Below, one piece after another: positions 3,656-14,476 of a stretch of DNA of 21,726 bases (the stretch's first letter is position 1; each line of letters starts with the position of its first letter). Location: positions 1-21,726 of the IMG/VR virus record IMGVR_UViG_3300024259_000168, one strand, 5' to 3'. The stretch is from a virus. The notes below the pieces were generated by a model. It worked only from the letters and a program-made list of their open reading frames with translations, was not told the DNA's origin and did not search any database. The position numbers and the translations under genes are program-made.

Positions 3656-3679
3656 AAAATGAATCAATCAGGACACGCT

Positions 3680-4183
3680 ATGAAAAAGAACACGGTTATA
3701 TTTGACCTTGATGGTACTCTAGCTATTATAGATGCTCGGAGAGCTAAATCCTTAACCAATGATAAAATGGATTGGGATGTATTCTTCGACCCCGATAATA
3801 TTAGTTTAGATAAACCAAATCTTCCAGTTATTAAGATGGCTCAGTTACTTGCTCAAGATGGATTTAGAATCGCTATCTTTTCAGGTAGGAACGATAGGTC
3901 GTTTTTCACTACTAAGGATTGGTTAACTCTTAACAAAGTTCCATTTGATTTGTTAGTTATGAGACCTGATAAGTTTAAGAAAGATTCTTGGCCGATTGCC
4001 GATGGTAATCCAGCTACTAAAGAAATGAGGTGGATGCCTGATGAAATCTTAAAGAAGGAGATGTTAGATACATTTATAAATATGGATGAAGTTTTTCTTG
4101 TGGTTGATGACAGAGATAAGGTTGTTAAGATGTGGAGAGATTTAGGATTAAATACTTTTCAAGTTGCGCCAGGAGACTTTTAA
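3680..4183 (+). CDS. HAD-family polynucleotide 3'-phosphatase-like protein
   Basis: This is a single-domain HAD phosphatase closest in pattern to the C-terminal 3'-phosphatase domain of T4 polynucleotide kinase. Motif I is FDLDGT near the N-terminus (nucleophile and general-acid Asp), motif II is FSGR, motif III includes the basic residues before the C-terminal third, and motif IV is VVDDRDKVVKMWR. It ends QVAPGDF, as T4 Pnkp ends QVASGDF. No kinase P-loop domain is present. Such enzymes remove 3'-phosphates and 2',3'-cyclic phosphates in RNA or DNA repair, for example after host anticodon nucleases. An upstream in-frame ATG at 3659 lacks a binding site; ATG 3680 has AGGA six bases upstream. 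A tRNA gene follows directly. Confidence 0.85.
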   Translation: MKKNTVIFDLDGTLAIIDARRAKSLTNDKMDWDVFFDPDNISLDKPNLPVIKMAQLLAQDGFRIAIFSGRNDRSFFTTKDWLTLNKVPFDLLVMRPDKFKKDSWPIADGNPATKEMRWMPDEILKKEMLDTFINMDEVFLVVDDRDKVVKMWRDLGLNTFQVAPGDF

Positions 4184-4187
4184 AAAT

Positions 4188-4258
4188 GCGAGTGTCGTAT
4201 AATGGTAATACCTCAGCCTTCCAAGCTGATGCTGTTGGTTCGATTCCAACCATTCGCT
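4188..4258 (+). tRNA. tRNA-Gly(UCC)
   Basis: This is a complete cloverleaf. Acceptor GCGAGTG pairs with CATTCGC (one G-U). The D arm is GTA-TAATGGTAA-TAC with the GG of the D loop. The anticodon stem TCAGC/GCTGA has loop CTTCCAA, so the anticodon is UCC. The T arm is GTTGG-TTCGATT-CCAAC. The discriminator is T4258, and CCA is not encoded. It would read GGA, a glycine codon used often in this AT-rich genome. It lies four bases after the phosphatase gene. Confidence 0.95.
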
Positions 4259-4289
4259 CAAAAATAAAATACACTTTAGGAGATTTCTA

Positions 4290-5567: not shown

Positions 5568-5639
5568 GCGGATGAAGAGTTATAAGAAACTCGCTTTGAT
5601 TCCATCGAAGAGATGTAGGTGCGACTCCTACCATCCGCT
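5568..5639 (+). tRNA. Aberrant tRNA-Gly(UCC)-like gene
   Basis: The acceptor GCGGATG pairs perfectly with CATCCGC (5632-5638). The anticodon stem CTTTG/CGAAG carries loop ATTCCAT, anticodon UCC, and the T stem is GTAGG/CCTAC. Several near-universal bases are missing: position 8 is A instead of U, the D loop (TATAAGAA between GAGT and ACTC) has no GG pair, and the T loop is TGCGACT rather than TTCGANN. The discriminator is T and CCA is not encoded. It has the same anticodon as the canonical tRNA at 4188 but low similarity. It may be a divergent or decoy tRNA, a decaying one, or a tRNA-like regulator. Confidence 0.7.
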
Positions 5640-5691
5640 CAACTTTTGGCCAGCTAGGCTATTTAACTATTGAAAATTAACAGGAAATAAT

Positions 5692-6885
5692 ATGGGATTC
5701 GATTCATTTTTCGATGAGCCAAAATTTAACTTCGATGCTGAACGCAAGAAGTTTATCGACAACTTAGACTATCTCAAGTCTATGTCCGTACAAGAACAAA
5801 CATTATATAAGAAGTGGCAAGAATTTAATGCTGATGTCTATTCAATGACTCAGAAAGCATCTAAATTTAAAAGAATTAATAATTCACTTTGGTGTCCTAC
5901 TGATATTGATAATAAAGAACAAACCATTAAAGAAATTGAAGCATTAGAACCTTACGTTGAAATGTTAGAACAGGGTGACGCTAAGGATAATGAGACTTGG
6001 ACATTAGTTCGTAGATTGATTCATACCATGGAGTTTACCGCTAACCCTGGCAGAAATCTAAAGTTCTATGTTAAAGACAGACCAACAAATAAGATATTAG
6101 GAATTATCTGTATGGGTTCTGATGTAACTTCATTAGGAGCTAGAGATAAATTCATAGGTTGGACTAAGGATAATAAATTTAAAGATGGCAAACTTAAATA
6201 TACTTCTATTGGAACTACAATTTGTTGCGCTCAACCATTAGGATATAATTTCTTAGGTGGTAAGTTAGTAGCTACTTTAGTTACATCGTCAGTAGTTAGA
6301 GATGCTTGGAAGAAAACGTATGGTCAGACTTTAGTTGGCGCTTCTACTACATCTCTTTATGGTATTCATTCTATGTACAATGGTATCCCACATTGGAAAA
6401 CCTTAGGCGAATCAGTTGGTAGAGTAGCATTGAAGCCAGATAATTCAACTTATGAAGTTTGGGTTGATTGGTTAAAAGAAAACCGAGCAAGTGAATATAA
6501 AATAATGAATACACAAAAAGAAGGTGTAGCAGGACCGCCAACGGGAATTAAACAAAAAATTATTGGGATGATTTTTAAAGCAGTTGGAGTTAAATCATCT
6601 AATTATCAGCACGGATTTAAACGTGGTATCTTCTTTGCTGATATCTATGAGAATGGTAAAGAGTTTTTGCGTGGCGAGATAGAAGAAGCAGGTTTGAAAA
6701 TGAAACCGAAGTATAATGATGATAGTGACTACATAATGAAGTGGTGGAAACCAAAAGCTATCAGAAGATATACTAAGTTATTTGATGAAGGTAGACTTAA
6801 ACCAGAGAAGTTATTCTACGGCGATATCGTAGGTAAGACTTGGGAAGAAACTAAAGAACAATATCTTGGCGAAGTTGGAAGATAA
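5692..6885 (+). CDS. DUF4338 (DruA-like) family protein, 397 aa
   Basis: AGGA at 5682-5685 supports ATG 5692. Residues about 105-245 match the DUF4338 pattern known from DruA of the Druantia defence system: ILGIICMGSD, then ARDKFIGWT (150-158), a Cys pair (I178-C179 region), GGKLVATLVTSS (189-200), a helix ending WKKTYGQTLVGASTTS, and WKTLGESVGR (235-244). The N-terminal 100 residues are helical and specific to this protein. The C-terminus is basic (WWKPKAIRRYTKLF). The biochemical activity of DUF4338 is unsettled. In a phage it could act on competing phages or host DNA. The next gene is a DUF262-HNH nuclease, which supports a defence-like theme. Family assignment is moderately sure. Confidence 0.65.
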   Translation: MGFDSFFDEPKFNFDAERKKFIDNLDYLKSMSVQEQTLYKKWQEFNADVYSMTQKASKFKRINNSLWCPTDIDNKEQTIKEIEALEPYVEMLEQGDAKDNETWTLVRRLIHTMEFTANPGRNLKFYVKDRPTNKILGIICMGSDVTSLGARDKFIGWTKDNKFKDGKLKYTSIGTTICCAQPLGYNFLGGKLVATLVTSSVVRDAWKKTYGQTLVGASTTSLYGIHSMYNGIPHWKTLGESVGRVALKPDNSTYEVWVDWLKENRASEYKIMNTQKEGVAGPPTGIKQKIIGMIFKAVGVKSSNYQHGFKRGIFFADIYENGKEFLRGEIEEAGLKMKPKYNDDSDYIMKWWKPKAIRRYTKLFDEGRLKPEKLFYGDIVGKTWEETKEQYLGEVGR

Positions 6886-6897
6886 TTGCAGAAATAT

Positions 6898-6926
6898 TTG
6901 TATTTGAAAAATTTATATACTATATA
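6898..6926 (+). promoter_or_regulatory. Promoter-like element P4 before the DUF262 gene
   Basis: TTGTAT (6898-6903), 17 bases and TATATA (6921-6926) form a candidate promoter; TATAAT at 6925-6930 is an alternative -10. It shares the AAATA..TTGTATTTGA segment with P3. It leaves a leader of about 120 bases, long for this genome, which holds CTTTGAC twice and a hairpin GGTAG/CTACC (7019-7023, 7034-7038) three bases before the AGGAG binding site. Confidence 0.45.
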
Positions 6927-7051
6927 TAATATGTATCACAAACGCTTTGACAGAAAGTTTAAGAAAATTCTTTGACGAGTAAGTAAGTAAAATTGGGATA
7001 CGAAGTAAAACAACAAACGGTAGTTAATTGAGGCTACCATAGGAGTTCCAA

Positions 7052-8818
7052 ATGGCTAAATTAGGCCAAACAACAGAAGCAATTCGAGATACGGCTTCCA
7101 CTATAATGCAATCTCTTAGTGAATTAGATAACATAACCTTAAACTATAAAGAAAAACGCGAGTTACAAAAGTCACTGCAGCGTTTAGTCAAAAAGAATGG
7201 ACTTCATTTACATACTATTCTCTCTGATGAAGGTGCGGTTAAGCAATTTATTTTAAATGTTTTCGATGGTGACACCAAGTCATCTGAAGATGGAGTGAAG
7301 GTTACAATCAAATTTTTGCGAGAACAGAGAAACGACTCTGGTCTTGACACACAACCTCGTTCATATCAACGTGAAAAAGTTGCGAGTTATGAATGGAAGT
7401 GTGAAATTATAAAGACTATCCTAATCGATAAAACCTATAAGATTCCAGCAATTCATATCAGAATTGTTCGTAATGAAAATGGTGATATTATCGGATATGA
7501 AGTTGCTGATGGTCAGCAAAGAGTTACCGCCGTATTTGACTTTATGGACAACCAGTTCACTTTACCCGTACAGAAAAAAGATCCATCTTTTCGTAGGTAT
7601 TGTGGAATGAATTGGACTAAGTTACTTATGATATATCCAGATGCTTGTGAAGAAATTAAAAATTATGGAATAGCAACTACTTTCTATGATAACTTCACAG
7701 ATGAAGATATCTCAACCCTATTCATTAAGATTCTTAACAACACAACCGACTTGAATGTTCAAGAAAAGAACAACGCAACTCGTAGTAGATTAGCTGATTT
7801 TGTCAGATACACTTCTCGTAATGGAAATGGTGAATGGGCAGACAAAGCTCATATGTTTCATGAGTTGTTTTCGAGAGATACTCTAAACAGAGGTACGCAA
7901 AAAGAAGAAACAGTTTGGAGTTACTTCAATAGTTTAGGTATCGGTCGTATGCAAGGTGACCAGTGGTTAGCTATGCTAGTGTATATGGTAGTTAATGATA
8001 ACTGGAAAAATGGAGCAACTGCATTATCAGTATCCAAGTTTTATGAAGAAACTTCGGTATCAAGTGGTCATGAAATTGGTTGGAATTTCAAAGATAAGTT
8101 ATCAACAAATTCAATGCCTAAAATAGAAAAAGAAGTTACAGATTTACTAAATATAGCTTTAAAATTTTCTGAATGGGTTTTGAAGTACAAAACTACCAAA
8201 ACTAATAGCAAGGGTAAAGAAGTACGAAAAATTTCAAATGCAAAGGCTTACTTAAAACATAACTTTATGTTTTTTGTAATCTTATTTGCTAGAGATTATA
8301 AGGAAGCTATGAAATCTGGTGCTGTCGATTGGAATTTGTATTTTGAAAAAATAACTGATGTTTATGATAAGTGGAATGAACCATCAGTTTATGAGAAAGA
8401 TGAAAATGGAAAATCTCGTTACCAATCGAATGGAACTACTATGTTAGGTGCTTTTAAAGCATTATGGGGTTCTTTTAATTCTAATGTGATTAGAACTGCT
8501 TTGGATATTATTTTATCTGAAATGGCTTTCGATCCAGATTGGGGATTTGTTGAAATTGATCGTAAAAACTTTACGAATAAACAAATCGAACAGAGATACA
8601 ATGAGAATGGTGGGATAGATGACTACACAGGCAAACCCACTCCCTTAGAAGATCTAGTTGGTGACCATGATATACCTCGTGCTTGGGGTATAGACAAAGG
8701 CGGTGTTACTGAGTATAGTAATCTCAAAATTACTACTGCTTATCATAATGGTCAGAAATTGACTATGAATGGCGAGGCTTATATGGCGAAGTTACGTGAA
8801 GATAAGAAGGCTGCTTAA
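7052..8818 (+). CDS. DUF262 + HNH nuclease (GmrSD-like, single chain), 588 aa
   Basis: AGGAG at 7041-7045 supports ATG 7052. Residues about 85-260 match DUF262 (ParB/sulfiredoxin-like NTPase): RSYQREKV (103-110), the key DGQQR (153-157), and FIKILNNTTDLNVQEKNNA. The C-terminus is an HNH module: GDHDIPRAWG with His539, YSNL with Asn557, and His565-Asn566 then Lys569. The Cys pair often seen in HNH zinc folds is absent. In GmrSD type IV restriction, DUF262 uses nucleotide to control an HNH-type (DUF1524) nuclease that cuts glucosylated DNA. Here both parts are in one phage gene, next to a glycosyltransferase. A role in attacking rival phage or host DNA is an inference. Confidence 0.85.
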   Translation: MAKLGQTTEAIRDTASTIMQSLSELDNITLNYKEKRELQKSLQRLVKKNGLHLHTILSDEGAVKQFILNVFDGDTKSSEDGVKVTIKFLREQRNDSGLDTQPRSYQREKVASYEWKCEIIKTILIDKTYKIPAIHIRIVRNENGDIIGYEVADGQQRVTAVFDFMDNQFTLPVQKKDPSFRRYCGMNWTKLLMIYPDACEEIKNYGIATTFYDNFTDEDISTLFIKILNNTTDLNVQEKNNATRSRLADFVRYTSRNGNGEWADKAHMFHELFSRDTLNRGTQKEETVWSYFNSLGIGRMQGDQWLAMLVYMVVNDNWKNGATALSVSKFYEETSVSSGHEIGWNFKDKLSTNSMPKIEKEVTDLLNIALKFSEWVLKYKTTKTNSKGKEVRKISNAKAYLKHNFMFFVILFARDYKEAMKSGAVDWNLYFEKITDVYDKWNEPSVYEKDENGKSRYQSNGTTMLGAFKALWGSFNSNVIRTALDIILSEMAFDPDWGFVEIDRKNFTNKQIEQRYNENGGIDDYTGKPTPLEDLVGDHDIPRAWGIDKGGVTEYSNLKITTAYHNGQKLTMNGEAYMAKLREDKKAA

Positions 8819-10192
8819 TTGAACATATTTCAATTTAGCGATGTCGAGGACAACGACAAAGAATACAAATACAAAATACTTGTATATCCAAATATAACTT
8901 ATTTAAAAGATTTGGAAAAAGATTCTTATGTTGTTGTCCTAGGCAACATCATTAAAGAACTGAATAAGATACGTGATGATTTCTTCTTTACAATTATATC
9001 TCCAGCTCATATCAATAGTTTAGAGTTTGAGAATACTGAACAATTGGTGATTCGTGAGTTTAATGGTAAAAAATATTATGATTCTTTTCGTAACTATCCT
9101 AATTCTATGAGAATGGATTTTCCTTTTAGAGAAGTTTTTGATGCTATTAAATGGAAAGAAAATGATTATGATATTATATATTCGCATCTACCAGAACATA
9201 CGGGAAACTTAAAGTGCTTATTAGAAAATACTACTAATATATCTCCTTCTATAATAGGTGGTTATACTCATTGGACAGAGTTTAAAGAGGTATCAAACTA
9301 TCACTATAATGTTGGCTTAGCTTATAATATAGTTGGTCTTTTAGAAATGATTAGTTGTGGTATAAACACCCAAGCTCAAAAAGATTTGGTATTGAAGAAT
9401 GCTAAAGAGTATTTTAATGATGATGTTATAAAAAAATTAGATAATATTCTTGTACCACTTTATCTTGGCTGGGAAACGCCCGAATACGAAAAACAAACTA
9501 CAGAAAAAAAGATTATTGTTTATAATCATAGACCACATACTTATAAGAACTACCCATGGTTTTTAGAACAGATGGATAAGTTGTGGGAAAAGAGAAAAGA
9601 TTTTGAAGTATGGGTGCCGCTTGCAGAAAGTAGAGAAAGAGAATACATCACAAATGAGAAGTTTGATAGGGTAGGTTACTTCTCTAAGCTATCTTCTTGT
9701 CGTGTTGGTGTATGCTGTAGGCAAAAATATGATGGGTGGGCTGTATCCGCTACGGATGGTATGAGTGTAGGAGTTCCTTATTTATTTTCAGATGACGATA
9801 GCTATCATGAATTAGCTGGGGATTTAGGAATATATTATGCAAATGAAAAAGCTTTTATGCGTAAGTTAGAATCACTTTTAGATAATGATGATACTCATAG
9901 AACTTACTCTAACATGGCATTAAAAAGATTTGAAGGAAGTAAATGGGAAAAAGCTATTAATCATTTTAATGATATGTTTAATGTAGCAATAGATAATGCG
10001 CCTATGTTAAAAGAAGATACCGAGTCATATAATAAAATCGTAGATTTTATTCACAAAAAGAAATCGGTAACAAAAAAACAAATATTGGAACATCTTGGCT
10101 GGGGAGTTAGAATATCCTTTAGCGGCTATCGTAATAGACTCAGGACAAATCCAACAATCAAATTCACAAAAAATAGATATGAGGTTAAATAA
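8819..10192 (+). CDS. GT-B glycosyltransferase with C-terminal winged-helix-like tail
   Basis: The frame starts at TTG 8819, directly after the previous stop; AGAAGG inside that gene is the binding site, and the next in-frame Met is far inside (residue 97). Residues 1-220 form the N-terminal Rossmann-like lobe. Residues 230-390 form the donor lobe: KIIVYNHRPHTYKN (231-244), VWVPLA, and SATDGMSVGVPYLFSDDDSY (310-329), the GT4/GT-B signature region. Residues about 404-457 look like a small winged helix (IVDFIHKKKSVTKKQILEHL, then basic RNRLRTNP). That tail suggests DNA binding and hence glycosylation of phage DNA, as with T4 glucosyltransferases. Modification of a surface glycan is the alternative. 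It may be coupled to the nuclease gene. Confidence 0.75.
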   Translation: MNIFQFSDVEDNDKEYKYKILVYPNITYLKDLEKDSYVVVLGNIIKELNKIRDDFFFTIISPAHINSLEFENTEQLVIREFNGKKYYDSFRNYPNSMRMDFPFREVFDAIKWKENDYDIIYSHLPEHTGNLKCLLENTTNISPSIIGGYTHWTEFKEVSNYHYNVGLAYNIVGLLEMISCGINTQAQKDLVLKNAKEYFNDDVIKKLDNILVPLYLGWETPEYEKQTTEKKIIVYNHRPHTYKNYPWFLEQMDKLWEKRKDFEVWVPLAESREREYITNEKFDRVGYFSKLSSCRVGVCCRQKYDGWAVSATDGMSVGVPYLFSDDDSYHELAGDLGIYYANEKAFMRKLESLLDNDDTHRTYSNMALKRFEGSKWEKAINHFNDMFNVAIDNAPMLKEDTESYNKIVDFIHKKKSVTKKQILEHLGWGVRISFSGYRNRLRTNPTIKFTKNRYEVK

Positions 10193-10954
10193 ATGAAACA
10201 ACTTACAGAACAACAAATAGTAGATAATTGGAATAAGTTAATTAAACTTATAGAAGATACATTTGAAGGAGAACGTAAAGAGAAACTCTTAAAGATGTAT
10301 AAGTACTTTGAAGATAGAATGTCAGTAGCACCAGCTAGTGGTAAAGCCGCTTATCATAATGCTATGGTAGGTGGTTATGTAGAGCACGTGTTGCACGTAA
10401 CTGATTGCGCTATTCAAATTAAAAAGGTGTGGGAGTCTAATGGCGCTATGATTAACTTCACCGATGAGGAATTGATCTTCGCTGCTGTGCATCACGACTT
10501 AGGTAAGGTAGGTGACTTAAATCAAGATTATTATATCCCACAAGATTCCGAATGGCATCGTAAGAATAAAGGGGAAATATTCAAACACAATCCGAAACTT
10601 CAATACATGACCGTTACCGACCGAGCTATTTTTCTTTTAAATCACTTCGGTGTTTCTATGTCGGAATGGGAATATATCGGATTACGTTTAACTGATGGTT
10701 TGTATGAAGATGGTAATAAATCTTACTATATATCTTATAACCCTGATTGGAGTTTAAAAAGTAATATAGCATACATACTTCACCAAGCTGATATGATGGC
10801 GACACATATTGAATCGGATGAATGGGATCGTTTGGATGAAGAAGTAAGTAATAACTTTCAAAAAGCCGTTGTCACCGAAGAAAAAACACAACCATCACCG
10901 AAGTTGAGTGTGAAATCACAAGACCTTTTTGAAGAGTTGTTTGGAGATAAATAA
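10193..10954 (+). CDS. HD-domain metal-dependent phosphohydrolase, 253 aa
   Basis: The ATG abuts the preceding stop, with a GAGG about nine bases upstream. HD signature residues are visible: His55 (AYHNAMVGGYVEHVLHV also gives His65 and His68), His100-His101-Asp102 followed by LGK (AAVHHDLGKVGD), and Asp200 (HQADMMA). This family hydrolyses nucleotides, cyclic nucleotides or RNA phosphates with divalent metals. The C-terminal 40 residues are a Lys/Pro-rich tail. Next to the glycosyltransferase it could serve nucleotide supply or modification, or remove host alarmone or defence signals; the substrate cannot be told from sequence. Confidence 0.85.
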   Translation: MKQLTEQQIVDNWNKLIKLIEDTFEGERKEKLLKMYKYFEDRMSVAPASGKAAYHNAMVGGYVEHVLHVTDCAIQIKKVWESNGAMINFTDEELIFAAVHHDLGKVGDLNQDYYIPQDSEWHRKNKGEIFKHNPKLQYMTVTDRAIFLLNHFGVSMSEWEYIGLRLTDGLYEDGNKSYYISYNPDWSLKSNIAYILHQADMMATHIESDEWDRLDEEVSNNFQKAVVTEEKTQPSPKLSVKSQDLFEELFGDK

Positions 10955-11213: not shown

Positions 11214-11990
11214 ATGGCTACAGCAACAGTATCAGGATCAGCAACTAAGGGTAAGGTGCCAGCAGTACCTAAAAAGAAGAAAAAACCAAAGAATTATTAT
11301 TTTCACCAAGGAACTGAAAAGGCTATAATTCGTTATAATAAAACAGATGATGCCAGATTAAAGAATATTATTTATAATGAACATATTGCATATCCATTTG
11401 ATAAATTGGCTGAAAATATAATTCATACATTTAAATTTTATTACTTTGATATACCATCTGAACAAGTAAAGCACGAAGTTGTATCTTTTCTTGTCATGAA
11501 CATTCATAAATTCAAAGAAGGTAAAGGTAAAGCTTTTTCTTACTTTAGTATTGTTGCGAAGAACTATTTAATCTTACATAATAATAGAAATTATAGTATG
11601 GGAAAGATACACTCTCAAATGGATGTGCTTGACTACAAACGTAATACGTTATCGGAAAGAGCTGCTTCGGAAAGGTCGGAAGGTGCTGCTATGTTTGTTG
11701 ATGAATTGCAAAGATTTTGGGAAACTAATTTAACAATTATATTTACTAGACAAAAGGATATTCGTGTAGCAGATGCTGTTTTACATATATTTCGAATGAA
11801 AGCGGATATAGAAAATTTTAATAAAAAGGCTTTGTATATTCTCATTCGAGAGATGACAAGTTCTAATACTCAACATATTACTCGTATTATAAATGTGATG
11901 AAAAAATATAATGAACGGTTGAGATATGAATTCGGAAAATATGGTATGGTAGATGCTAGTGATTCTGGATCACTAATAAAATATAACTAA
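11214..11990 (+). CDS. gp55: gp55-like late-transcription sigma factor
   Basis: GGAGAA upstream supports ATG 11214. The N-terminal 30 residues are low-complexity and Lys/Pro-rich (VPKKKKKPKNYYF). Residues 40-130 match the phage late sigma pattern: LAENIIHTFKFYYFD, then MNIHKFKEGKGKAFSYFSIVAKNYLI, resembling sigma region 2 of T4 gp55 (helix, HNFDETK..., aromatic-rich helix). gp55 replaces sigma70 on host RNA polymerase and directs it to late promoters with the help of the sliding clamp and gp33. The C-terminus (DASDSGSLIKYN) could hold the short clamp-binding tail. At 258 aa it is longer than T4 gp55 (about 185). A strong terminator follows directly. Confidence 0.8.
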   Translation: MATATVSGSATKGKVPAVPKKKKKPKNYYFHQGTEKAIIRYNKTDDARLKNIIYNEHIAYPFDKLAENIIHTFKFYYFDIPSEQVKHEVVSFLVMNIHKFKEGKGKAFSYFSIVAKNYLILHNNRNYSMGKIHSQMDVLDYKRNTLSERAASERSEGAAMFVDELQRFWETNLTIIFTRQKDIRVADAVLHIFRMKADIENFNKKALYILIREMTSSNTQHITRIINVMKKYNERLRYEFGKYGMVDASDSGSLIKYN

Positions 11991-12384: not shown

Positions 12385-12777
12385 ATGAGCATTGAATATG
12401 AAATATTTAAGGGCAAAACATTATCAGGTGTATTCAAGGATATCTATGATAACACCGAAAGAAATAAAGAACAATTAGAAGTTCTTATGAAAGAAGTTGT
12501 TGGATTTATTAAAGACGGTGACACTGCAGTTCAAATAATCCCAATGTTAAAAGAGTATTTAGAAATCAATGTAAAAAATGATGACCAATTAGTAAAAATG
12601 GCAGCTATCGTGCAACGTATTATAGCGGCTGAAAATAAAAGTGGATCTGATGACGGTTTAATTTTAAGTGACTCAGAGAAGGAACAGCTCTTAACGGCAG
12701 TAAATGAAGTTGCAGATGATGTTCAAAAATATTCAGATAAATTGGAAAGTGTAGATTATGGCACAGATAGCGATTAG
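12385..12777 (+). CDS. Hypothetical protein at head of the baseplate operon, 130 aa
   Basis: AAGGAG at 12373-12378 supports ATG 12385. The product is acidic and all-helical (IYDNTERNKEQLEVLMKEVVGFI, LVKMAAIVQRIIAAEN, SDSEKEQLLTAVNEVADDVQKY), possibly a helical bundle or a small structural/chaperone protein. No family is recognised. It overlaps the gp5-like gene by 20 bases in another frame, so the two are probably coupled. It is the first gene after the divergent promoter region. Confidence 0.75.
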   Translation: MSIEYEIFKGKTLSGVFKDIYDNTERNKEQLEVLMKEVVGFIKDGDTAVQIIPMLKEYLEINVKNDDQLVKMAAIVQRIIAAENKSGSDDGLILSDSEKEQLLTAVNEVADDVQKYSDKLESVDYGTDSD

Positions 12778-13954
12778 ACGACAATCATCACAAGATAGTG
12801 TTGATCAATCTATAACAGGAGTTCCCACATATTCTAAAATTATAGATATTATAGACAGTAGGCTGGGTAGCTCAGAGTTTTATGAAATCGTGCCAGCCAG
12901 AGTTTTGAAGGTTTATTCGGAAGAAGCGGATTTGCCGATAATAACTGTCAAAGATAAAAAGAATTTCAATTGGTCTCTTCTATACAGCATAGATGTAGAA
13001 GTAATTGAAGATGGTAGGGTAATTAATAATGTACAACCATTATCTATAAACTTCATACAATTGCCTGTTACTGATGAGGTAGTTAACTTAACGGCCCACG
13101 GAGGAACAATATATTATTCTGCCCCCGTCAATTCAGAAAACGATGTGACTGCAAACATCAAGGGATTAGAATCCAATGATAATAAAGTTTTTAGAAATAA
13201 AAATGCTCATAATAGAAAATCATATAGTTATCATGGTGATACTATTCTACAAGGTAAATTTGGTCAGCACATAACTTTTTCAGGGTTTCCTGACGATACT
13301 GGTCAATATGTAAGCCCATTGATATTGATAGGATCTAATCAATTTAATGATAAGAATCAATTAACATATAAAGATGGTGACAGACATATGCCACATATTC
13401 ATAATGTTAATAGTTTTGGATCAGCTATAGAAATTTCGTCTGGAAATTATATGACCATGATTGAACCCGCCTTCACCGATTTCGAAAATTTACTCAAGCC
13501 TTTAAAGTTGGGTGGTGATCAAATAGTAGTAAATTCCGATAGGGTTATTATAAATGCAAAAAGGGATACAATACGGAATACTCAGAGTGGAGATATTCAC
13601 TTCTTTGCTGGAAGAAATGTGAATATTGGAGCTACAGAGGAAATAAATTTAGAAATTACTCCGGGCGATAATCTCAGTAAAATTACACTTGCGGATGCAA
13701 ATAGTGTGAATCCATTAGTTAAAGGAAATGAATTATTAGAGATGATGGAATCTTTAATTGCAAAAGTGGTAATATTTACAAAAGTTCTTACGGATGAGGG
13801 GGAGGAAGATGGTGAGGCAGTTTCTAAAAAAACTATGGGTGCGGCTGCAAAAACCTTGATCGCAGATTTACAAACATTAAAATCGAATTTTCTTACGCCA
13901 ACGGATGTGAATAAGAAAGGTAAAATATTTAGTAATAAAATATATATAGGATAA
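12758..13954 (+). CDS. gp5: gp5-like baseplate hub/spike protein, lysozyme domain absent
   Basis: The ATG lies inside the preceding gene, with GGAAAG about 10 bases upstream. Residues about 35-160 are beta-rich and fit the gp5 OB-fold domain (ARVLKVYSEEADLPIITV, QLPVTDEVVNL). Residues 190-230 include SPLILIGSNQFND and the His-rich DRHMPHIHNVN. Residues 250-305 are a regular beta pattern (GGDQIVVNSDRVIINAKRD, GDIHFFAGRNVNIGATEEINLEI) like the intertwined beta-helix of the gp5/VgrG spike. In the tail it forms the central membrane-piercing spike. T4 gp5 has an internal lysozyme domain; none is seen here, so peptidoglycan cutting must be done elsewhere. The C-terminal 70 residues are helical. Confidence 0.75.
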   Translation: MAQIAIRRQSSQDSVDQSITGVPTYSKIIDIIDSRLGSSEFYEIVPARVLKVYSEEADLPIITVKDKKNFNWSLLYSIDVEVIEDGRVINNVQPLSINFIQLPVTDEVVNLTAHGGTIYYSAPVNSENDVTANIKGLESNDNKVFRNKNAHNRKSYSYHGDTILQGKFGQHITFSGFPDDTGQYVSPLILIGSNQFNDKNQLTYKDGDRHMPHIHNVNSFGSAIEISSGNYMTMIEPAFTDFENLLKPLKLGGDQIVVNSDRVIINAKRDTIRNTQSGDIHFFAGRNVNIGATEEINLEITPGDNLSKITLADANSVNPLVKGNELLEMMESLIAKVVIFTKVLTDEGEEDGEAVSKKTMGAAAKTLIADLQTLKSNFLTPTDVNKKGKIFSNKIYIG

Positions 13955-13957
13955 ATT

Positions 13958-14476
13958 ATGGGAATGCTAGCAGATGTAGTAAGAAATTATATTAAAGAGG
14001 AAGTTAATAGTCGTATCGGTGATATTGATGTGGATGTTAATGAAAAGATTGAAATGTTAAATGCGGGCGGAGCAGAAGCTGATAAAGCTGAAGCTGAAAT
14101 TGATGAAATACAAGGTAAGTTGGATGATCTAGAAAAATTACAAGAAGATATAGATGAAAAGGAAGCCCAATTGGAAGGAGTTCAAAAATCATTAGACACT
14201 GCGCAAAAAACTGCAGAGGCGACTGAAAAATCTTCAACGATCGGTGGGGCTTTAAATCCAGTGGCAGCCGCTCTTGCTGTTGTTCAAAAATATGTTATTG
14301 AAAAAGTAAAATCTGAAATTAAAGATTTAAGAGATGTTAAAACAATACTAAAGCCAACAGCAGAGAATATCGGAGATTATGCGAGAGACACTAAGAAGAA
14401 AATTAAAAGAACAATTGATGATAGAAAAGAAAGGCAGAGAATCCGCAAGGAAAAAATGAGAAAGTTATCTAATTAA
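13958..14476 (+). CDS. Coiled-coil baseplate-region protein, 172 aa
   Basis: ATG 13958 is three bases after the gp5-like stop. Residues 40-92 are a strong coiled coil (EADKAEAEIDEIQGKLDDLEK and onward). Residues 95-110 form a small Ala/Gly-rich hydrophobic segment (IGGALNPVAAALAVVQKYV). The C-terminus is highly basic (KKKIKRTIDDRKERQRIRKEKMRK). An acidic coil followed by a basic tail suggests a scaffold or connector in tail assembly. No named family is recognised. Confidence 0.75.
   Translation: MGMLADVVRNYIKEEVNSRIGDIDVDVNEKIEMLNAGGAEADKAEAEIDEIQGKLDDLEKLQEDIDEKEAQLEGVQKSLDTAQKTAEATEKSSTIGGALNPVAAALAVVQKYVIEKVKSEIKDLRDVKTILKPTAENIGDYARDTKKKIKRTIDDRKERQRIRKEKMRKLSN

Follow-up and report, generated by a model that had tools for sequence, protein, structure and literature searches.

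The DUF262-containing nucleases GmrSD, BrxU and SspE respond to DNA modification (PMC4619093, PMC10952713), and fusions of Mom with a restriction endonuclease (Mom-REase) in jumbo phages were predicted to combine protection of the phage DNA with attack on the DNA of the host or of superinfecting phages (PMC7824862). Here we describe a locus that may follow the same logic with a different set of genes. It lies in a virus fragment of 21.7 kb (IMG/VR record IMGVR_UViG_3300024259_000168, positions 1 to 21,726; this whole stretch is called the window in the following). An earlier note on this DNA had pointed to four genes for a DUF4338 protein, a DUF262-HNH nuclease, a GT-B glycosyltransferase (GT) and an HD hydrolase, and all four open reading frames are present in this order and at the positions described, on the plus strand of a T4-like contig. 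We lean towards the view that the locus is a phage-borne "mark and cut" island, in which DUF4338 and the GT mark phage DNA and an exchangeable nuclease encoded between them cuts other DNA.

According to this proposal DUF4338, as a Mom-like GNAT, and the GT, together with Mom where it is present, would place chemical marks on the DNA of the phage itself. The slot between DUF4338 and the GT would encode an exchangeable effector, in place of which related phages carry others. The DUF262 or ParB-like domain of the nuclease in this slot may read the state of the DNA, powered by nucleoside triphosphate (NTP), and in the window nuclease the HNH domain would do the cutting. We infer DNA as the substrate of DUF4338 and the GT, bases as the marked sites, and as targets of the nuclease DNA that lacks the self mark or bears the mark of another phage, i.e., DNA of the host or of a co-infecting phage. 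The attack-and-protect idea of the earlier note is retained insofar as co-occurrence, slot contents and folds fit a theme of modification plus nuclease, while the HD hydrolase and a link to Druantia drop out of it. The argument from GmrSD is weak in detail: the match of the nuclease lies under the Pfam cut-off, and a GmrSD-like cutter of glucosylated DNA would destroy glucosylated self unless its specificity differs, so it is more coherent to assume that the nuclease cuts DNA with no mark or with a different one.

The locus resembles the Mom-REase of jumbo phages (PMC7824862) in that GNAT/Mom DNA modification is linked to an endonuclease. There, however, both are fused in one protein, whereas the window has separate genes, an added GT and an interchangeable nuclease slot, and DUF4338 replaces or accompanies Mom. 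With GmrSD, BrxU and SspE (DUF262 plus HNH or DUF1524) the window nuclease shares a single-chain ParB/Srx-type DUF262 architecture, the DGQQR motif and a C-terminal HNH. It differs from them in being phage-borne, in scoring under the GmrSD_N cut-off without a DUF1524 match, and in being tied to the phage's own GT, not to bacterial defence islands.

The earlier note had suggested looking for co-occurrence of these genes in other phages, and this was done starting from the nuclease alone. A scan with the DUF262-HNH profile only returned 53 loci, which together with the window and one further locus gave 32 full-length homologues after dereplication at 95% identity. In 24 of the 32 the nuclease stop is located between 10 bp inside and 41 bp before the start of a GT homologue, usually near DUF4338. 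These 24 loci fall into three T4-like layouts: the window type (GT-HD-gp55), a location beside gp43/gp44 (DUF4338-nuclease-GT), and a polymerase-linked type (Mom-Mom-DUF4338-nuclease-GT-gp43-gp45 and variants). The GTs of the two non-window layouts are about 33–40% identical to the window GT. Thus, in separate lineages these genes are found together far more often than expected by chance. Among the other homologues, L193 (same contig as L005) has the nuclease in the island but 5′ of DUF4338, L232 has it in a DUF4338-GT-Mom-Mom island, and in L228 GT and DruA are found elsewhere on the nuclease contig. The scan for ParB-like/PD-(D/E)XK nucleases gave a similar picture, with the nuclease of L251 directly 5′ of a polymerase-linked GT, and the scan for GIY-YIG proteins retrieved slot members only.

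Independent gain of the genes in relatives had been named in the earlier note as evidence against a joint system. The nuclease tree shows 8 changes of label against a minimum of 4. Even when only its supported branches are counted, the window-type label must change at least 3 times, so the nucleases beside window-type GTs do not form one clade. Independent gain is only half of the picture: the nucleases were gained and swapped independently, yet they repeatedly land beside one GT family, which favours a partnership.

Scans seeded with GT and with DUF4338 covered about 185 loci, some of which overlap; 52 distinct loci that contain the segment from DUF4338 to HD, and the window as the 53rd, served for the analysis of the slot. 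The relatives are phages of oceans and lakes and make up a large family, and those with the module are without exception metagenomic fragments. DUF4338 was found 5′ of the slot in the 52 sampled related loci, and the genes are usually arranged as DUF4338, slot, GT, HD, a small gene and gp55. Gene-sized room exists in 39 of 49 intervals between DUF4338 and GT, compared to 1 of 49 between GT and HD; in the two intervals that follow it is 0 of 36. The DUF4338-GT junction is thus a hypervariable slot. The last slot gene nearly always abuts or overlaps the GT start. This also applies to the window, where the TAA of the nuclease is followed by the TTG start of the GT with zero gap and the GT stop directly by the ATG of the HD gene, as the earlier note had stated. 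Of the four genes only nuclease, GT and HD abut, and DUF4338 is separated from the nuclease by 166 bp.

The slot occupants were assigned by clustering and family searches. Besides DUF262-HNH proteins they comprise a family with GIY-YIG and ParB-like domains (10 loci), a ParB-like and PD-(D/E)XK-like family (5 loci) with a conserved D...D..EIKV motif, and Mom (PF25680, 7.8e-40; 5 loci); the ParB-like/PD-(D/E)XK names were read from the alignment, while Pfam gave no match. DNA methyltransferases of the D12 (3.3e-26) and N6_N4 (8.5e-56) types, GHKL ATPases, some unknown proteins and extra glycosyltransferases also occur, the latter being a TET-associated GT (TAGT, 7.7e-11), a PLOD-type GT and a GT-B enzyme (L156 6175-6978, L087 1670-2428 and L132 1529-2566). 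A search for the TET-associated GT elsewhere in 26 related contigs found none. One GHKL ATPase lies 5′ of the GT in L004 (239-1867; HATPase_c_3 6.7e-14, NCBIfam MzaB 7.1e-7), and further GHKL ATPases 5′ of the GT were read from the open frame in the slots of L056 and L057. Tandem Mom genes were observed beside a DUF262-HNH gene and a GT in T4-like contigs where the GT precedes gp43 (L198 3020-4583; also L202, L203, L217, L219 and L231), and PF25680 was present in 17 of 27 related contigs tested, mostly in two copies.

We compared 34 pairs of loci whose HD proteins were at least 85% and whose gp55 proteins were at least 80% identical. Identity below 70% was found for the GT in 18 of 34 pairs and for DUF4338 in 10 of 33, but never for HD, gp55 or o130. 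Examples are L028/L058 (DUF4338 97%, HD 93%, GT 49%), L028/L133 (DUF4338 59%, HD 95%, GT 81%) and L002/L006, which have wholly different slots at 92% identity of DUF4338 and 96% of the GT. Island modules are swapped among relatives. Some structural genes further 3′ vary as well, so variability alone is not specific for the island.

The slot was empty, with DUF4338 joined straight to the GT, in about 10 genomes, and in three the GT was missing and DUF4338 was joined to HD. The retention of modification genes in the empty-slot genomes would be in agreement with a function in anti-restriction only: DUF4338 and the GT would shield the phage against host restriction, and the slot nuclease would mainly recycle unmodified host DNA to nucleotides instead of attacking rival phages. 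T4-like phages are known to degrade host DNA. This process by itself requires no such variety, however, and the diversified slot nucleases and the GT and DUF4338 alleles rather resemble a conflict with varied opponents. We therefore regard a purely anti-restrictive role as improbable.

In the window the slot is occupied by the nuclease (7052..8818, 588 aa). Its match to GmrSD_N (DUF262, PF03235) reaches 20.6 bits, under the cut-off of 33.2, while remote homologues exceed this cut-off (L236 35.3 bits, L238 83.2 bits) and PADLOC reports a match to NsnA (5.5e-10). Judged from sequence comparison, it is a real but remote DUF262 protein. The motif (I/V)DGQQR was described for GmrS (PMC4619093); the window nuclease has DGQQR at residues 153–157 (7508..7522), a predicted NTP site, with Ala in place of I/V before it, and the motif is invariant among the closest homologues (alignment A8). 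The HNH core spans residues 537–569 (8660..8758; GDHDIPRAWG...EYSNL...YHNGQK). In this region H539, G550, N557 and N566 are invariant across 9 homologues, D538-H539...N557...N566 fits the E/D-H-N-N pattern of the GmrSD family, and L145, a remote homologue, matches HNH models at 1e-13. Searching Pfam with the whole nuclease or its C-terminal 92 residues gave zero match to DUF1524 (PF07510), which leaves room for remote similarity. A scan with the single sequence found no close relatives of the nuclease, while the alignment-based scan did retrieve relatives. Among the DUF262-HNH relatives the ratio of nonsynonymous to synonymous substitution rates (dN/dS) was mostly 0.08–0.35, and none of 42 long matches contained internal stops. 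The nuclease is under purifying selection.

DUF262-HNH genes without an adjoining GT were observed about 1–2.3 kb 5′ of a carbamoyltransferase gene (PF02543) in L225 (5839-10246) and L228 (5845-10916), and this family is present on all six contigs with a DUF262-HNH gene that lacks a neighbouring GT. An enzyme with carbamoyltransferase domains is known to carbamoylate 5hmC (PMC8670742).

The DUF4338 protein (5692..6885, 397 aa) matches DruA in Pfam (PF14236, 92 bits; cut-off 27) and in PADLOC (2.5e-22). Its AlphaFold model (predicted local distance difference test, pLDDT, 88) shows a GNAT fold, and the structural matches span residues 82–343 (5935..6720). DUF4338 was independently called a GNAT domain (PMC10853773). 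The best match of the model in VIA-align was Mom of phage Mu (8bv8; Z 11.1, root-mean-square deviation 4.2, 184 aligned positions), with other GNATs at Z 9.6 or less, below Mu Mom; Mom leads by a modest margin, and Foldseek gave weak E-values (3.4e-3 at best). The model thus places DUF4338 as the GNAT nearest to Mom, which is short of claiming that it is Mom. DUF4338 is larger than Mu Mom and carries the DruA/DUF4338 signature, a search with PF25680 gave zero match for the window protein, and a direct sequence relation was dismissed after hhalign against the slot Mom proteins gave no similarity.

Druantia loci include the large helicase DruE. The proteins of the window that were scanned include no helicase, hence none of the DruE type, and membership of DUF4338 in Druantia was rejected on this ground and that of the GNAT fold. 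Since this fold has Mu Mom as its top structural match, DUF4338 is more likely a DNA-modifying enzyme, predicted to be an acyltransferase, than a part of Druantia. In a phage collection 31 records match DUF4338, mostly labelled hypothetical. Locus L090 (7001-9224) has two tandem DUF4338 genes (57% and 35% identical to the window protein), and no GT precedes its HD gene.

The GT (8819..10192, 457 aa, TTG start), whose homologues lie directly 3′ of nucleases, matches Glycos_transf_1 at the cut-off (26.4 bits). Its model (pLDDT 83) shows a GT4-like GT-B fold with Z 24–26 to a mannosyltransferase and BshA. Residues 400–457 (10016..10189) form an extra C-terminal domain of the order helix-helix-helix-strand-strand, modelled with pLDDT 85–95 and with 15 invariant columns in the alignment. 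From its topology alone this tail looks winged-helix-like, and it may bind DNA. In other lineages GT and DUF4338 adjoin the replication genes gp43/44/45. The phage record collection gave no match for the GT or the nuclease, hence the evidence rests on IMG/VR contigs. In bacterial genome assemblies the GT was found at three metagenome-assembled loci, two of them with adjacent DUF4338; these are probably phage contigs.

Several of our results weigh against marking and cutting of DNA by this island. Five of the 32 nuclease homologues lie on fragments showing neither GT nor DUF4338, and two of three tested GIY-YIG slot members match a PHROG homing endonuclease (best 1.5e-12). Searching Pfam and PDB with the sequence of the GT tail yielded nothing useful for a winged helix, and a profile of 144 GT relatives scored nothing against T4 AGT. 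A hydroxymethylase (PF00303) was not found in window-like contigs of up to 96 kb, all of which are fragments; the acceptor of the GT may therefore be another adduct, or the contigs are incomplete. Furthermore, the core of the GT is nearest to GT4 enzymes that act on small molecules or glycans, with MshA, BshA, PimA and WaaG as top matches. This last point would suit a surface or virion glycosyltransferase that remodels host glycans and shares no more than an operon with the nuclease, and variable GT clusters for surface glycans are known from cyanophages (PMC7824862). The tight linkage of the GT to DUF4338, Mom and replication genes, its conserved extra C-terminal domain and the nuclease adjacency in three lineages argue against such a function, which we consider very improbable.

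The strongest rival is a homing hot spot. The slot would then attract selfish free-standing homing endonucleases (HNH, GIY-YIG, PD-(D/E)XK) that target conserved DNA near the GT, and the modification genes would be mere neighbours. The PHROG matches of the GIY-YIG proteins and the frequent exchange of slot occupants are in agreement with this. T4 has mobB, a gene for an HNH homing endonuclease, beside a-gt next to the gene 55 region, and thus shares with the window a GT near gene 55 that has an HNH endonuclease gene alongside; the GTs are not detectably homologous in sequence, and T4 mobB is annotated as a homing endonuclease, with DUF262 or ParB not named. Homing genes are known to gather in the vicinity of replisome genes, where unrelated ones can occur at a single locus (PMC10448857). 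The window locus resembles these points of genetic exchange in having variable nuclease genes beside replisome genes, but its slot also holds modification enzymes, and the ParB/DUF262-type nucleases keep to the side of a single GT family. Some of the slot occupants do not home, namely Mom, methyltransferases, TAGT and GHKL ATPases, and ParB/DUF262-type domains typify enzymes that sense modification rather than homing endonucleases. The nucleases track the GT family over three layouts, although these GTs are probably too divergent to provide a common cut site. The window nuclease gave no match to PHROG homing endonuclease families, and decayed nuclease copies were not seen. Taken together, we consider homing unlikely as the explanation of the slot.

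A wider version of the mark-and-cut proposal is possible, but we put it forward only tentatively. One marking pathway (DUF4338 and GT) would immunise the phage against interchangeable ParB/DUF262-family nucleases with unrelated catalytic cores (HNH, GIY-YIG and PD-(D/E)XK), and marine and freshwater T4-like phages would use this modular phage restriction-modification in competition with other phages, the mark probably being a new glycosylated or acylated base. If this applies, lytic phages of oceans and lakes carry a common swappable weapon slot, with one DNA mark shared among them as the basis of self-protection. Phage DUF4338 would then have a role, a hypermodified base not yet known would be expected in T4-like phages, and there would be a genomic handle on who excludes whom during phage co-infection. 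The proposal also makes it testable whether a given variable nuclease beside a phage GT gene, as in T4, is a selfish homing gene or a weapon.

The HD-domain phosphohydrolase (10193..10954, 253 aa), a conserved neighbour with a weak Pfam HD match and better PHROG matches, had been counted as the fourth gene of the island. In Flavobacterium phage immuto HD occurs with o85 and a gp55-like gene, with GT and DUF4338 absent nearby, and in L061, L062 and L070 it directly follows DUF4338 with the GT missing. HD was rejected as a component because in this lineage it generally adjoins gp55 and persists where the locus has no GT. It goes with the gp55 block and is probably outside the system.

The gene 3′ of HD overlaps the HD stop codon and is followed by a probable gene for the late sigma factor gp55 (11214..11990, plus strand), which served as context marker; a profile of 67 relatives matches T4 gp55 weakly (11 bits). 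The contig was assigned as T4-like by this gp55-like gene and a gp6-like baseplate wedge gene, and in T4 a-gt is likewise located upstream of gene 55.

Further genes were observed on both sides of the island. A one-piece transfer-messenger RNA (tmRNA) gene lies at 2519-2941 of this T4-like phage (Rfam RF00023, 103 bits; tag EYDYSPMVPVSNDEPTYAYAYA); ARAGORN found tmRNAs with similar tags 5′ of DUF4338 in L002, L034, L039 and L040, and others in L140 and L152. A PNKP-type HAD phosphatase (3659-4183; PF25109, 4.1e-27) is encoded shortly 5′ of the island, and in L005 such a phosphatase gene lies immediately 5′ of the DUF262-HNH gene. The window has two tRNA-Gly(UCC) genes (4188-4259 and 5568-5640), the second directly 5′ of DUF4338, and a tRNA-Gly is found at the matching position in L002, L005, L006, L009, L036, L038-L041 and L140. 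Two genes at 12758-14476, between the gp55-like and the baseplate genes, are very divergent among otherwise close relatives (medians 52% and 34%).

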